Positions 41,469 to 51,031 of a stretch of 64,000 nt of DNA are shown here, in pieces (position 1 is the stretch's first letter; each line of letters starts with the position of its first letter). The translations under genes and the position numbers were made by a program. This stretch comes from Devosia sp. Root413D1 (GTDB taxonomy: Bacteria > Pseudomonadota > Alphaproteobacteria > Rhizobiales > Devosiaceae), in NCBI RefSeq assembly GCF_001425235.1, contig NZ_LMEA01000001.1, positions 347,855-411,854 on the forward strand, read 5' to 3'. The notes beneath the pieces were generated by a model. That model was not told the DNA's origin, made no database searches, and saw only the letters and a list, made by a program, of their open reading frames with translations.

Positions 41469-42341
41469 CTACACCCCGTACCCGGTGAGCTTCATGCAGA
41501 TGCCGTCGAGCTGCTCCAGCGTCCGGTAGCGGATCTCGAGCCGGCCACCCTGGTCTTTGTGATCGATCGCCACATGCAGCCCCAGCACGTCCGAGAGCCG
41601 CTTCTCGAGCGCTGCCGTATCGGCATCCTTCTGCTCGGGCGCTGCCGGCTTCTTCTTGGGCGCGTTGATCTCGCGCTGCGTCAGCACCTCGGCTTCGCGC
41701 ACCGACAGGCCACCGCCAACGATGCGCTTCGCCAACGCCACCGGATCGTCCGCCGTGATCAGCGTGCGCGCGTGGCCAGCCGTCAGTTCGCCGCTCGCCA
41801 GCATGCCGCGCACGTCGTCGGGCAGCTTTAGGAGCCGCAGCGTATTGGCGACATGCGAGCGGGATTTGCCGATCACCTGCGCCAGGTCGTTCTGGGTGTA
41901 CTCAAACTGCTCGATTAGCTGACCGTAACCCATTGCTTCTTCGAGCGGATTGAGGTCGACACGCTGCACGTTCTCGATGATCGCGAGCTCAAGCGCTTCC
42001 TTGTCGTCGACATCGCGGATGATCACCGGAACATCGTTCAGCCCGGCGCGCTGCGAAGCGCGCCAGCGGCGCTCGCCGGCAATGATCTCGAACTGGTTCG
42101 GATCATTGGTCGGCCGCACCAGCAGCGGCTGCATCACGCCCTTCTCGCGGATCGAGCTGGTCAGCTCTTCCAGCTGAGCCGGGTCGAAGTCGCGCCGCGG
42201 GTTGGCGCGGTTGGCGATCAGGAAGTCGACCGGCAGGCGCTTGGAGCTGCTGCCGTCGGCCAGCCGCGCTCCCTCCATCGTCGCCATGTCGCCGATCAGC
42301 GCCGCGAGGCCACGCCCGAGCCGTGATGGTTTCTCGTTCAT
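41469..42341 (-). CDS. parB: Chromosome-partitioning protein ParB
   Basis: CTP-dependent parS-binding clamp of 290 residues. The N terminus is typical (SRLGRGLAALIGD), the CTP-binding motif is GERRWRAS with ENVQRVDLNPLEEA, and the central helix-turn-helix follows (TQNDLAQVIGKSRSHVANTLR split). The C-terminal dimer domain ends the protein. ATG 42341 is chosen for its AAGGAAG site and family N terminus. It follows parA by 10 bp. Its targets, parS-like sites, surround the gene. Confidence 0.96.
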   Translation of the reverse strand: MNEKPSRLGRGLAALIGDMATMEGARLADGSSSKRLPVDFLIANRANPRRDFDPAQLEELTSSIREKGVMQPLLVRPTNDPNQFEIIAGERRWRASQRAGLNDVPVIIRDVDDKEALELAIIENVQRVDLNPLEEAMGYGQLIEQFEYTQNDLAQVIGKSRSHVANTLRLLKLPDDVRGMLASGELTAGHARTLITADDPVALAKRIVGGGLSVREAEVLTQREINAPKKKPAAPEQKDADTAALEKRLSDVLGLHVAIDHKDQGGRLEIRYRTLEQLDGICMKLTGYGV

Positions 42342-42351
42342 TCCAACTTCC

Positions 42352-43152
42352 TTATGCGGCCATGAGCTGGCGCTCACGCCGGATCACTTCGGTAGCCAGA
42401 CGCAGATAGGCCTGGCTGCCGGCACATTTGAGGTCATAGAGCAGCGCCGGCTTGCCGTAGGACGGGGCCTCCGACAGCCGAACATTGCGAGGTATCACCG
42501 TATCATAGACCAGCGACCCCATCTCCGAGCGCACATCGGCCAGCACCTGTTCGCTGAGGTTGTTGCGGCGATCGAACATGGTCATCACAACACCCTGTAT
42601 CGACAGGCGCGGGTTCAGGGTCGTGCGAATTTGCTCAATAGTTTGAAGCAGTTGGCTCATACCCTCGAGCGCGAAGAATTCGCACTGCAGCGGCACCAGC
42701 ACGGCATCGGCGGCGACCAGCGCATTTATGGTGAGGAGGTTGAGCGACGGCGGGCAGTCGATCAGCACATAGCTGACCGCCTGGCCATTGATGGTCAGGT
42801 CGCTCATCGCCCGGAAGGCATCGCGCAGCCGGAAAGCGCGGTCCGCCTGCTGGGCAATAGTGAGCTCGACGCCGAGCAGATCGAGGGTCGACGGCACGAT
42901 AGCCACGTTCGGCACGCTGGTCATCACCGCGGCCGCCGCCACTTTGGCGTCGCCCATCAGCAGATCATAGCTCGAGACGTCACGGTCGACGCGCGAGATG
43001 CCGAGGCCCGTCGAGGCGTTGCCCTGCGGGTCGAGATCGACGATCAGCACACGCTCGCCAATCGCCGCGAGCGCCGTGGCCAGGTTGATTGCGGTAGTGG
43101 TCTTGCCGACCCCACCCTTCTGATTGGCGAGGGTCAGGATTCGAGGAGCCAA
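42352..43152 (-). CDS. parA: Chromosome-partitioning ATPase ParA
   Basis: Deviant Walker ATPase of 266 residues that moves ParB-bound origins. The Walker A-type P loop KGGVGKTTT is at 12-20, the signature VLIVDLDPQGNAS follows and YVLIDCPPSL is the Walker B segment. Translation starts at TTG 43152, with GGAGG 7 bp upstream. It lies 23 bp after rsmG and 10 bp before parB. Confidence 0.96.
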   Translation of the reverse strand: MAPRILTLANQKGGVGKTTTAINLATALAAIGERVLIVDLDPQGNASTGLGISRVDRDVSSYDLLMGDAKVAAAAVMTSVPNVAIVPSTLDLLGVELTIAQQADRAFRLRDAFRAMSDLTINGQAVSYVLIDCPPSLNLLTINALVAADAVLVPLQCEFFALEGMSQLLQTIEQIRTTLNPRLSIQGVVMTMFDRRNNLSEQVLADVRSEMGSLVYDTVIPRNVRLSEAPSYGKPALLYDLKCAGSQAYLRLATEVIRRERQLMAA

Positions 43153-43175: not shown

Positions 43176-43826
43176 CTAACTATTTGATTTCCGTCGCAAA
43201 TTGCTGATCTCCAGCAACACGCCGGCCTCGTCGGTGGCGCTCTTGATTACTACCACGTCGAACTCCCACGCCAAACGACTTTCCTCAACCTCCACAGCAT
43301 GATCCTTGCCCTTATGCAGGATCGCGCGGGTTTCCGGCCCAAAGAAGGGGTGGATAAGTTCCAGCAACAGCGGGAGCGCCGCCAGCGCTCGTGAAGTGAT
43401 CACATCGAAGCCGGAGCGGTCGCCGAGTGTTTCACGTGAATCAAAGCTGTCGGTCCGTCCGGCATGCACCGCTGCGGCCAGACCAAGCTCCCGGATCACC
43501 TGCCTGAGGAAGGCGACCTTCTTGCCGATCGGCTCGACCAGCGTGAAGCTTGCCGGGCCGCCCTTGAGGGCGATTGCCAGGGGCAGCGCCGGCAGGCCAC
43601 CACCTGAGCCAACGTCCAGGAAGAGCTGATCTCCGGGTCGAAGCAATGGCAGAACCTGCAGCGAATCGACGACGTGTCGCGTCCACAGGGCATTCTCTGT
43701 TTCACGTGAAACAAGATTCTGCACGGCGTTCCATTTCTTCAGCAGCGCAGCAAACGATTCCAGATCCCGACGCACCGCGGCTTGGGGGCGAGCAAGCGCA
43801 CCGGAATAGGGCGTAAGATCGTCCAT
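43176..43826 (-). CDS. rsmG: 16S rRNA m7G527 methyltransferase RsmG (GidB)
   Basis: SAM-dependent methyltransferase of 216 residues acting on 16S rRNA G527. Marks are NLVSRET near residue 40, WTRHVVDSLQVLPLL, and the SAM-binding FLDVGSGGGLPALPLAIAL split over about 70-90. ATG 43826 overlaps the mnmG stop (ATGA). Two parS-like sites lie within the gene; both fall on codons for SRET. Confidence 0.94.
   Translation of the reverse strand: MDDLTPYSGALARPQAAVRRDLESFAALLKKWNAVQNLVSRETENALWTRHVVDSLQVLPLLRPGDQLFLDVGSGGGLPALPLAIALKGGPASFTLVEPIGKKVAFLRQVIRELGLAAAVHAGRTDSFDSRETLGDRSGFDVITSRALAALPLLLELIHPFFGPETRAILHKGKDHAVEVEESRLAWEFDVVVIKSATDEAGVLLEISNLRRKSNS
43428..43443 (+). other. parS-like site 4 (inside rsmG)
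   Basis: TGTTTCACGTGAATCA, 15 of 16 positions of the parS consensus. On the rsmG strand it encodes DSRET. Confidence 0.85.
43698..43713. other. parS site 5 (inside rsmG), perfect palindrome
   Basis: TGTTTCACGTGAAACA is a full 16-bp palindrome identical to the classic parS form. It encodes part of the conserved LVSRET segment of RsmG. Confidence 0.93.
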
Positions 43827-45723: not shown

Positions 45724-45739
45724 TGTTTCACGTGAATCA
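45724..45739 (+). other. parS-like site 6
   Basis: TGTTTCACGTGAATCA, 15 of 16 positions of the parS consensus, in the mnmE-mnmG gap. Confidence 0.88.
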
Positions 45740-48980: not shown

Positions 48981-50015
48981 TCAAGCTCCTCGCGCCACTG
49001 CAATCAGCCGCTCGACATGGCCGATCGGCGTTTCCGGCACGATGCCGTGCCCCAGGTTGAAGATATGCGGACGGCCGCGGAATGCCGCAACGATCTGGCG
49101 CACGCGATCATCCATCTGCTCGCCGCCGGCCAATAGCCGCAACGGATCGAGATTGCCTTGCACCCCGAGCCCTGCCGGCAACTCGGCGGCAAAGCCAAGC
49201 GGCGTCGCATAGTCGAGCCCGAGCACGTTCACGCCGGTCGCCTTGGCATAGGCCGGCAGATTGCCCGCGGCACCACGCGGAAAGCCGATCACCGGCGCCC
49301 CCGGAACAAGCTTCCTAAGCCCTTCGACGATCCTCCGGTTCGGTTCGATCACCCAGTTGCGGAACGCCACCTCATCCAGGTTCAGCGCCCAGCTCTCGAA
49401 CAGCTGCACCACATCGGCGCCGGCGCCGAGCTGCGCCGCCAGGTAGTCGATGCTGGTTTCGACCAGAATATCGATCAGCTTCGCAAAAGCCTCAGGCTGC
49501 GTCAGGGCGAACACTCGCGCCGCCGTCTGATCCGACGAGCCACGTCCGCCGATCATGTAAGTCGCAACCGTCCAGGGCGAGCCACAGAAGCCAATCAGGG
49601 TCTTATCGGCACTGAGGCCAGCTCGAACCCGTCGAACGGTCTCGATGATGGGGCTGAGCTTCTCCAAAGCCCCTTTGGGATCGAGCCGCGGGATCGACTC
49701 TGTCGTCAAGGGCTCGAGCAGTGGTCCCTCGCCGGCTTCGAAACGGACATACTGGCCGAGTGCATCGGGGATCACCAGGATGTCGGAAAAGAGGATCGCC
49801 GCATCGAGATCAAAGCGCCGCAATGGCTGCAGCGTCACTTCGGCAGCCAGTTCCGGGTTGTAGCAGAGATCGAGGAAGCTGCCGGCCTTGGCCCTGAGCT
49901 CCCGATACTCCGGCAAGTAGCGTCCAGCCTGGCGCATGATCCAGATCGGCAACCGCTCCTGGCGCTGCCCGAGCACTGTCTCAAGCAGCGGTTTCAGCAC
50001 CGGCGTCGCGGTCAT
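48981..50015 (-). CDS. hemE: Uroporphyrinogen decarboxylase
   Basis: Cytoplasmic haem-synthesis enzyme of 344 residues that converts uroporphyrinogen III to coproporphyrinogen III. The N-terminal signature PIWIMRQAGRYLPEY (about 24-38) and the central GFCGSPWTVATYMIGG are complete. It is the last leftward gene before the putative oriC; hemE flanks the origin in several Hyphomicrobiales and in Caulobacter. Confidence 0.96.
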   Translation of the reverse strand: MTATPVLKPLLETVLGQRQERLPIWIMRQAGRYLPEYRELRAKAGSFLDLCYNPELAAEVTLQPLRRFDLDAAILFSDILVIPDALGQYVRFEAGEGPLLEPLTTESIPRLDPKGALEKLSPIIETVRRVRAGLSADKTLIGFCGSPWTVATYMIGGRGSSDQTAARVFALTQPEAFAKLIDILVETSIDYLAAQLGAGADVVQLFESWALNLDEVAFRNWVIEPNRRIVEGLRKLVPGAPVIGFPRGAAGNLPAYAKATGVNVLGLDYATPLGFAAELPAGLGVQGNLDPLRLLAGGEQMDDRVRQIVAAFRGRPHIFNLGHGIVPETPIGHVERLIAVARGA

Positions 50016-50223
50016 CGCCCAACCAACCCAAAAGACTCTAGATTCTTAATCATCATTATCATGGCGGTGTTTTGCAGGAATTCCGCTTTGCCCACAACGC
50101 GCATGGCGGCGACAGAAGCGCGCGGCGCGGGGGCTAAGCCGAGGCTGTGAATCGTCGTCTGTAGACAAAGCCGGGCGTCCCCGGAGTCGTCCGGCTTACT
50201 AAGTCTTAACCATGTCACAATCG

Positions 50224-50238
50224 CTAACGAACCGTTAA
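50224..50238. promoter_or_regulatory. CtrA-box-like site in oriC
   Basis: CTAA-N7-TTAA, one base from the CtrA consensus TTAA-N7-TTAA, 69 bp from the perfect box. Confidence 0.5.
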
Positions 50239-50292
50239 CGAGCCTGTGGATGATGGCGTGCCAGACGCAAGCGGTTATCCCCGTAGCTCACA

Positions 50293-50307
50293 TTAAGCCT
50301 TCGTTAA
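50293..50307. promoter_or_regulatory. Perfect CtrA box in oriC
   Basis: TTAA-GCCTTCG-TTAA fits the CtrA consensus exactly. It lies 10 bp from a DnaA-box-like nonamer, as in the Caulobacter origin, where CtrA blocks initiation. Confidence 0.7.
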
Positions 50308-50437
50308 CTCTCCCCGGGGGCCGGGCTGTTGAAGGATTTCGTCCCAGCGGGGAGAACTCGGCCGGTCACCGGCCTCGCCGGCTTTTCCACCGCCGGTGGA
50401 CTTGAGCGAACAAGGACAGTGTGGAAAACCCCTGACC

Positions 50438-51031
50438 ATGCTGATCCTCGCTTCGAAGAGCCCAACGCGAAAAGCCCTGCTGGCGGGAGCCGGCTTGCGA
50501 TTCGAGACGAGTCCAGCGCCAATCGACGAACGAGCGCTCGAAGCCGATGTGCTGGGGAAAGGCGGAGCTGCGCCGCAGGTGGCGCGCCGCCTCGCCGAAG
50601 CCAAGGCACTTGCCGTTTCCGGCTCCCGTCCGGGCATCGTCATCGGTGCCGATCAGGTGCTGGCGCTGGACGGCGAGCTGCTGCACAAGCCGGAAAGCCT
50701 CGCCGCGGCGGCAGCGCAGCTCGATCGGCTGGCTGGTCGAACGCACCATCTGCACGCCGGTGTGGCGCTCGCCGCCAATGGCAGTCTGCTGTGGTCGAGC
50801 ACGGAAACCGCCGCGCTGACCATGCGCCGCTTCGATGCGGCGGAGCGCGACCTGGTGCTTGCGCTGGAGGGGGTCGATGTTCTCGGCTCGGTCGGCGCCT
50901 ACCGGCTCGAAGGTCCCTCGATCCGGTTGTTCGAGCGGATCGAGGGCGACTATTTCACCATTCTGGGGCTGCCGCTGTTGCCTCTTCTCCAGGCCTTGCG
51001 TCAGCATGCGCCGGAAACCCTGAGCCAGTGA
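50438..51031 (+). CDS. maf: Maf-family nucleoside triphosphate pyrophosphatase
   Basis: House-cleaning enzyme of 197 residues that hydrolyses non-canonical nucleotides. The N-terminal SKSPTRKALL and the central VIGADQVLALDG and EGDYFTILGLPL are the Maf signatures. ATG 50438 gives the family N terminus (MLILASKSP); longer in-frame starts lie in the origin region. It is the first rightward gene from the origin, and its stop overlaps aroE. In many alphaproteobacteria a ppsR-type gene stands between the origin and maf; none is present here. Confidence 0.92.
   Translation: MLILASKSPTRKALLAGAGLRFETSPAPIDERALEADVLGKGGAAPQVARRLAEAKALAVSGSRPGIVIGADQVLALDGELLHKPESLAAAAAQLDRLAGRTHHLHAGVALAANGSLLWSSTETAALTMRRFDAAERDLVLALEGVDVLGSVGAYRLEGPSIRLFERIEGDYFTILGLPLLPLLQALRQHAPETLSQ

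Follow-up and report, generated by a model that had tools for sequence, protein, structure and literature searches.

Where does the main chromosome of Devosia sp. Root413D1 begin its replication? The question is raised by a gap without genes between the divergent genes hemE and maf, located in the 64,000-nucleotide stretch of DNA analysed here (the window), which corresponds to positions 347855-411854 of the 875-kb contig C1 in a genome of 5.85 Mb and 14 contigs. An original prediction had placed oriC in this gap, given as 422 bp long and flanked by a leftward block of eight genes and a rightward block. The length holds between hemE and the conserved ATG of maf, and both blocks were recovered by HMM searches, namely parB, parA, rsmG, mnmG, mnmE, rho, hemJ and hemE to the left and maf, aroE, coaE and dnaQ to the right. 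The hemE gene has 89% identity to its best match among named genomes, that of a Devosia MAG, and 71-76% to other Devosia loci, which places the DNA in Devosiaceae, and its match to TIGR01464 indicates that the hemE flank of a Cori-type origin is present. That the gap is the oriC of the main chromosome is very probable, the reading being supported by a flip of KOPS polarity at the gap, parS sites nearby and a length and motifs that are conserved across the family. Judged from the sequence, two replichores meet at the gap, centromere-like sites adjoin it and it carries a conserved array of weak DnaA boxes, CtrA sites, GANTC sites and AT-rich DNA (Table 1). The origin call is in itself expected; what is added here is the KOPS evidence, the conserved CtrA boxes, an element on the hemE side and a lost flanking gene. 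No paper titled on a Devosia origin was found in the open-licence PMC literature (Devosia with oriC).

Table 1. Features of the candidate origin and its surroundings, in window positions (contig C1 positions in brackets where given).
Feature	Position	Strand	Remarks
Candidate oriC, divergent hemE-maf intergenic gap	50016..50437 (C1:397870-398291)	.	KOPS break, parS, motif density, conservation
hemE, left neighbour	48981..50015	-	TIGR01464, 390 bits, over cut-off
maf, right neighbour	50438..51031	+	PF02545, 147 bits, over cut-off; NF002690, 211.6 bits, below its 269
parB and parA, chromosomal type	41469..43152	-	TIGR00180 over cut-off
parS, 1 mismatch, inside rsmG	43428..43443 (C1:391282-391297)	.	
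parS, perfect TGTTTCACGTGAAACA, inside rsmG	43698..43713 (C1:391552-391567)	.	
parS, 1 mismatch, between mnmG and mnmE	45724..45739 (C1:393578-393593)	.	
GANTC (CcrM-type) site 1	50034..50038	.	
GANTC site 2	50041..50045	.	
AT-rich three-base-periodic tract AAT CAT CAT TAT CAT, proposed unwinding start	50048..50062	+	T at third positions
Devosiaceae element GGCGGTGTTTTGCAGGAATTC = GGCGGTGTTTTG-N4-AATTC	50063..50083	+	Family alignment
DnaA-like box TTGCCCACA, 2 mismatches	50088..50096	+	CCACAA core 50092-50097
DnaA-like nonamer CGATTCACA, 2 mismatches to TTATNCACA	50146..50154	-	
GANTC site 3	50149..50153	.	
DnaA-like nonamer TTGTCTACA, 2 mismatches	50160..50168	-	
GANTC site 4	50184..50188	.	
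CtrA-like site CTTACTAAGTCTTAA, 2 mismatches	50195..50209	+	Decayed copy, class a position
CtrA-like site CTAACGAACCGTTAA, 1 mismatch	50224..50238	+	
DnaA box TCATCCACA, 1 mismatch	50245..50253	-	
DnaA-like box TTATCCCCG, 2 mismatches	50275..50283	+	In the family often TTATCCCCA or TTTTCCCCA
Perfect CtrA box TTAAGCCTTCGTTAA, class b	50293..50307	+	
DnaA-like nonamer TTTTCCACC, 2 mismatches	50383..50391	+	
DnaA box TTTTCCACA, 1 mismatch	50420..50428	-	Nearly invariant across family

Octamers were ranked by strand asymmetry about hemE in C1 and in G057, a complete chromosome from the same genus (one contig of 5,032,994 bases), and GGGCAGGG came first with 255 leading against 23 lagging copies. 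This octamer is presumably a form of the FtsK-orienting KOPS word, the E. coli consensus of which is GGGNAGGG. As it was picked on the hemE split of these two sequences, only the position of the break and a further genome, G080, are freer tests. In C1, forward and reverse copies of the word (on FtsK and KOPS, see PMC2680272) number 2:28 on the hemE side and 22:7 on the maf side (Fisher p 3e-8, for a split that was not blind), and the freely fitted break falls at 388,445-420,026 with the gap inside it. The change point of forward words in G057 lies at 2.213 Mb (2-log-unit range 2.182-2.223 Mb) and the gap at 2.2168 Mb; this rests on 72 forward places among the matches listed, which include every one of the 33 forward words that the sampled stretches contain below 3 Mb. 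The break is thus resolved to ~30 kb in C1 and ~40 kb in G057. The arms of the G057 sample contain 91:6 and 8:118 words, and the terminus is placed at ~4.65 Mb with the antipode of hemE at 4.73 Mb, while the sampled fit begins the right arm at 2.30 Mb, tied with a start at 2.00 Mb.

Genome G080 belongs to another genus (g15) and was outside the octamer ranking. Viewed for reverse words only, it has at least 12 at 29-148 kb, at least 21 at 319 kb-2.05 Mb and, from 2.235 Mb onwards, a dense run; hemE of this genome lies at 218.7 kb, to which the addition of half of the ~4.0-Mb (rounded) chromosome gives ~2.2 Mb. This genome, the only one of g15 examined, agrees with a polarity switch at the hemE gap.

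In genus g16, words running the wrong way were observed in two genomes. The hemE of G056 is at 115 kb on the + strand, so an origin there predicts reverse words at 28-109 kb on the maf side, yet 11 of the 12 listed words in this region (C1:27915-109445 of that genome) are forward and point towards the gap. G062, viewed for reverse words only, has at least 25 of them at 15-321 kb (C1:14983-320587 of that genome), where forward words are expected. G056 retains the whole gap and its motifs, followed by maf, aroE, coaE and dnaQ in order, and an inversion beside the origin is therefore as likely as an origin that has moved.

GC skew gives a more ambiguous picture. The minimum of cumulative skew, expected at the gap in the original prediction, is found at 787 kb on C1, 389 kb away, which taken at face value is the refuting outcome named in that prediction, although a sharp step does occur at the gap: skew is -0.063 to its left and -0.006 to its right, the curve bends there, and the split is also present at third codon positions and in intergenic DNA. 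The displaced minimum is attributed to the maf-side arm (C1:398000-874870), which has almost zero skew, and the skew minimum as sole locator of the origin was rejected. In G057, a free two-breakpoint fit to 100 sampled stretches (80 of 20 kb and 20 of 5 kb) placed the origin at 2.25 Mb and the terminus at 4.70 Mb, hemE itself being at 2.216 Mb and the point opposite it at 4.73 Mb. The fitted origin is therefore within one 50-kb sampling step of the gap and the terminus nearly opposite, in a fit that explains 18% of the variance only (R2 0.18). The sampled G057 stretches also depart unusually far from strand parity, their net skew on one strand being about -0.023; unidirectional replication, suggested by this mean, was rejected as the KOPS arms are two-sided.

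As to the weak skew of the maf side, recent inversions near the origin were not supported as its source, the G057 stretches sampled over ~200 kb there being collinear with C1; older or recurrent inversions are possible. The dnaA gene lies on the maf side, 0.1-0.5 Mb from hemE, in all 21 genomes; its orientation agrees with fork movement in 12 and opposes it in 9 (chromosome lengths being rounded for 18 of the 21). These flips of strand indicate that the neighbourhood of dnaA has been inverted repeatedly, which may explain the weak skew of this arm. Comparison of G000 with G057 shows a block containing dnaA in opposite orientations.

Three parS sites occur in the window, 4-7 kb from the gap. 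Sites with at most one mismatch number 2-4 per genome and are found near hemE in 21 of 21 genomes, within ~7 kb of it except for one in G106 (8.7 kb) and one in G079 (~35 kb). A plasmid or chromid with repABC had been named as the context that would speak against a chromosomal origin, and no such cassette was found at the locus with the RepA and RepB equivalog profiles: ParB scored 57 of the 201.5 bits for RepB and ParA 94.5 of the 348.45 for RepA, both far below cut-off.

An origin near dnaA (745.8 kb on C1, ~348 kb from hemE), as in many bacteria, with the hemE-maf gap only a divergent promoter region, is scarcely credible: the cumulative skew minimum does lie 41 kb from dnaA and two of the next KOPS words past it are reverse (766,024 and 786,302), but those around it are all forward (736,795, 745,316 and 763,113), giving no flip in the right sense, words from 420 kb up to dnaA are mostly forward, the 800 bp scanned, which end where the matched DnaA domain begins, contain no DnaA box with one mismatch or fewer, G080 has at least 12 reverse words between dnaA and hemE, and it is at hemE and not at dnaA that parS lies in the 21 genomes.

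Within the gap, the predicted AT-rich end beside hemE was confirmed, the first two 50-bp windows having a G+C content of 0.42-0.44; the rest ranges over 0.56-0.74, save one dip to 0.42 at 50196. DnaA-like nonamers are present as predicted, the count being six rather than five near the strict word TTATCCACA (counted by eye), and seven when two mismatches to TTATNCACA are allowed, of which two have one mismatch or fewer. The perfect box TTATNCACA is absent from the gap and from the whole of the 875-kb C1, for which ~5 copies are predicted from base composition. The perfect CtrA box is where it had been seen, while GANTC sites number four and not three. The right half of the decayed CtrA-like site runs on as TTAACCAT (50206-50213). 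For IHF, only matches with two mismatches to the single consensus tried were found in the gap.

These sites are much denser than in 94 other C1 intergenic gaps of at least 300 bp, delimited with a simple purpose-made gene finder. The gap has 4.74 DnaA boxes per kb at one mismatch or fewer (0.14 in other intergenic DNA) and 16.6 at two or fewer (2.6), as well as 9.5 GANTC (1.65) and 11.9 TTAA (0.77) per kb, and it exceeds all 94 for near DnaA boxes, GANTC and TTAA. With coding DNA included, two other 450-bp windows of C1 also have two DnaA boxes with at most one mismatch and two have five GANTC, and the gap is still highest in C1 for TTAA density only.

Such motifs could also be promoter elements of hemE and maf, with CtrA and DnaA acting here on transcription and the origin lying a few kb off, near parS for instance. 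Two promoters must indeed fit in the gap, the Caulobacter DnaA and CtrA are described as regulating transcription too (PMC4468827, PMC4433202), and the polarity break is no finer than the tens of kb given above. Nevertheless, this is very unlikely, as none of the 94 gaps equals the density of this one for any type of site, the place beside hemE is that of the Caulobacter origin located by experiment according to PMC1914354, and the gap length and site spacing are conserved over Devosiaceae.

With regard to this conservation, the gap measures 408-458 bp in 37 of 41 extracted loci (three duplicates counted). The alignment was drawn from 42 gap records, these being the 41 loci and the window, and has 37 rows including the window, which are related to each other and not independent. 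Left out were the duplicates L137, L158 and L165 together with L019 and L025, which have no maf match; L143, with a maf match from residue 81, was trimmed to 405 bases, and L017 is outside the set as its match coordinates are the same as those of L142. For comparison with other loci, L017-L028 were taken as Devosiaceae, comprising eight titled Devosia, one Pelagibacterium (a genus which we assume to belong to the family) and L018, L019 and L027, the gaps of which equal those of family genomes.

At the hemE end, the 37 rows read YWT triplets, GGCGGTGTTTTG, N4, AATTC, N8 and CCACAA, and most positions within these words are at least 90% conserved. In the triplet tract, the third base is T in 97-100% of rows for four of the five triplets and in 62% for the other. 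The CCACAA core is nearly invariant and its spacing from AATTC is fixed. Other conserved blocks of the gap are TTWTCCCCA, TGTTAA and CTTGAG..TGTGGAAAAC. Allowing up to three mismatches, GGCGGTGTTTTGC was found in 12 of 12 Devosiaceae loci (L017-L028) and in 6 of 68 others, against a shuffle rate of 9%. On this alignment, the element beside hemE is invariant and family-specific, and there is about an even chance that it serves in unwinding.

The idea that GGCGGTGTTTTGC is a general signature of Hyphomicrobiales was rejected, 6 of 68 being about the shuffle rate, although Bauldia (L029), one of the six, carries its match at the corresponding place. The idea that in other Hyphomicrobiales the hemE-side element holds an ancestral DnaA box is kept as a lead only, such a box having been found in just 15 of the 63 non-Devosiaceae loci (of 68) covered by that test.

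Like the basal unwinding system, the AT-rich edge of the gap has an uninterrupted run of five NAN triplets on one strand. However, these depart from the 3'-GAT-5' consensus given in PMC8287927, and the arrangement is outside the DnaA-trio rule of that source (at least three NAN triplets no more than 16 bp from a box with two mismatches or fewer), the triplets lying at 50048-50062 and the nearest box beginning at 50088.

TTAA-N7-TTAA, the form of the CtrA box, is present in 35 of 37 Devosiaceae gaps and in 7 of 68 other hemE loci (five of the 68 being without the usual neighbours). Three of these seven are Cohaesibacter, and both retention and regain of the box are therefore possible. Pairs of TTAA in the 37 gaps occur 48 times at spacing 7 and 14 times at spacing 25, with no more than five at each other spacing of 0-24; random placement gave a mean of 1.6 gaps with the box and a maximum of 7 in 2000 runs. 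By position, the 48 sites fall into class a (29), class b (11) and class c (7), with one other; class a is the commonest in the family, and the window keeps a decayed a and a perfect b. The whole of C1 has six TTAA-N7-TTAA, one of which is TTAAGCCTTCGTTAA, and the next commonest spacing (0-25) has two pairs. Spacing 7 is commonest across C1 too, as would follow from a use of such sites by CtrA at other loci. Contig C10 encodes a CtrA orthologue (425 bits, cut-off 350).

The boxes are somewhat more probably than otherwise a means of direct CtrA control of replication. It is also quite possible that the gap is oriC while its CtrA boxes function in transcription and replication is without direct CtrA control; the candidate sites could serve the hemE or maf promoters. 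PMC4433202 describes the S. meliloti origin as not bound by CtrA, B. abortus CtrA is said in PMC2877005 not to bind its own origin, and loss of the CtrA sites from the Caulobacter origin is reported to perturb replication only mildly in culture (PMC4468827). Against this, the 48 sites turn over among three positional classes and do not keep to one promoter position, and they are interspersed with DnaA boxes.

Two further organisms help to place the Devosiaceae gap, namely S. meliloti, the origin of which is presumably also beside hemE, and Hyphomonas neptunium, which we take to stand outside Hyphomicrobiales. The former belongs to the same order as Devosia, and PMC4433202 describes its origin as lacking a CtrA motif as well as binding, unlike nearly all of the 37 Devosiaceae gaps. 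Brucella, also of Hyphomicrobiales, differs similarly, the Devosiaceae gaps having candidate boxes and B. abortus CtrA being said not to bind its origin (PMC2877005). In H. neptunium, CtrA binds beside the origin by ChIP-seq (PMC7200025), a likeness at the level of description, and CtrA boxes are predicted at origins of the Wolbachia group (PMC1914354). With CtrA bound or predicted to bind at these origins and absent from that of S. meliloti, the Devosiaceae gap is regarded as a variant within its order and not a new kind.

The gap also resembles Cori of Caulobacter crescentus, compared here by features. Both have hemE on one side, an AT-rich region, weak DnaA boxes, CtrA boxes and parS within 8 kb (PMC1914354, PMC4468827), and the position beside hemE assumed in the original prediction is confirmed by experiment for Caulobacter in PMC1914354. 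In Cori, low-affinity G- and W-boxes adjoin CtrA sites, and exclusion of DnaA is the presumed effect of CtrA there (PMC4468827). The Devosiaceae gap differs in having its own hemE-side element, no clear IHF site, and maf in place of the COG1806 (PF03618, ppsR) flank of a Cori-type origin.

This flank gene, ppsR, encodes a kinase/pyrophosphorylase, and a profile search of whole genomes with PF03618 found it in none of 21 Devosiaceae genomes; among 14 control genomes the profile matched three, namely Caulobacter, E. coli and B. subtilis. The gene sits between hemE and maf in a Sphingomonas (L070) and in one Mesorhizobium (L080, in the order hemE-ppsR-maf), the two loci outside the family that were checked. 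In most other Hyphomicrobiales loci among the matches listed, the hemE-maf distance is ~1.3 kb, which leaves room for ppsR. Wolbachia origins are likewise described as without the COG1806 flank (PMC1914354), and the flank is therefore not treated as defining the Cori type.

It should be mentioned that a hemE match is absent in 8 of 121 family genomes. In genus g10 (genomes of ~2 Mb) a close hemE is absent from the five drawn, four having none and one a 33% match, which suggests altered haem synthesis. In G094:C118, G077:C233 and G119:C1, hemE is split or has in-frame stops, these being pseudogenes or assembly errors.

If the gap operates as its sites suggest, DnaA would assemble cooperatively on weak boxes, no perfect box existing, and the AT-rich triplet tract on the hemE side, which adjoins GGCGGTGTTTTG-N4-AATTC and the CCACAA box, would melt; helicase would then be loaded and forks would depart in both directions. 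CtrA~P bound at the TTAA-N7-TTAA sites that lie amid the boxes at 50245-50283 would keep DnaA off until CtrA itself had been removed, and methylation of GANTC would mark replicated origins. Taken jointly, we tentatively propose a CtrA-gated origin in an order which is without one in S. meliloti and Brucella, with boxes kept or regained at three positions, the unwinding module on the hemE side replaced by the invariant non-box element GGCGGTGTTTTG-N4-AATTC-N8-CCACAA with a YWT tract, and ppsR lost; this combination is somewhat less likely than not.

The analysis locates the origin, with the strength given above, for a bacterial family in which GC skew alone would mislead. Should these CtrA boxes prove to act on replication, Devosiaceae would offer a further test case, in an order other than that of Caulobacter, of the gain or retention of a cell-cycle brake at an origin, and relatives from the same order that lack this brake could then be compared directly.
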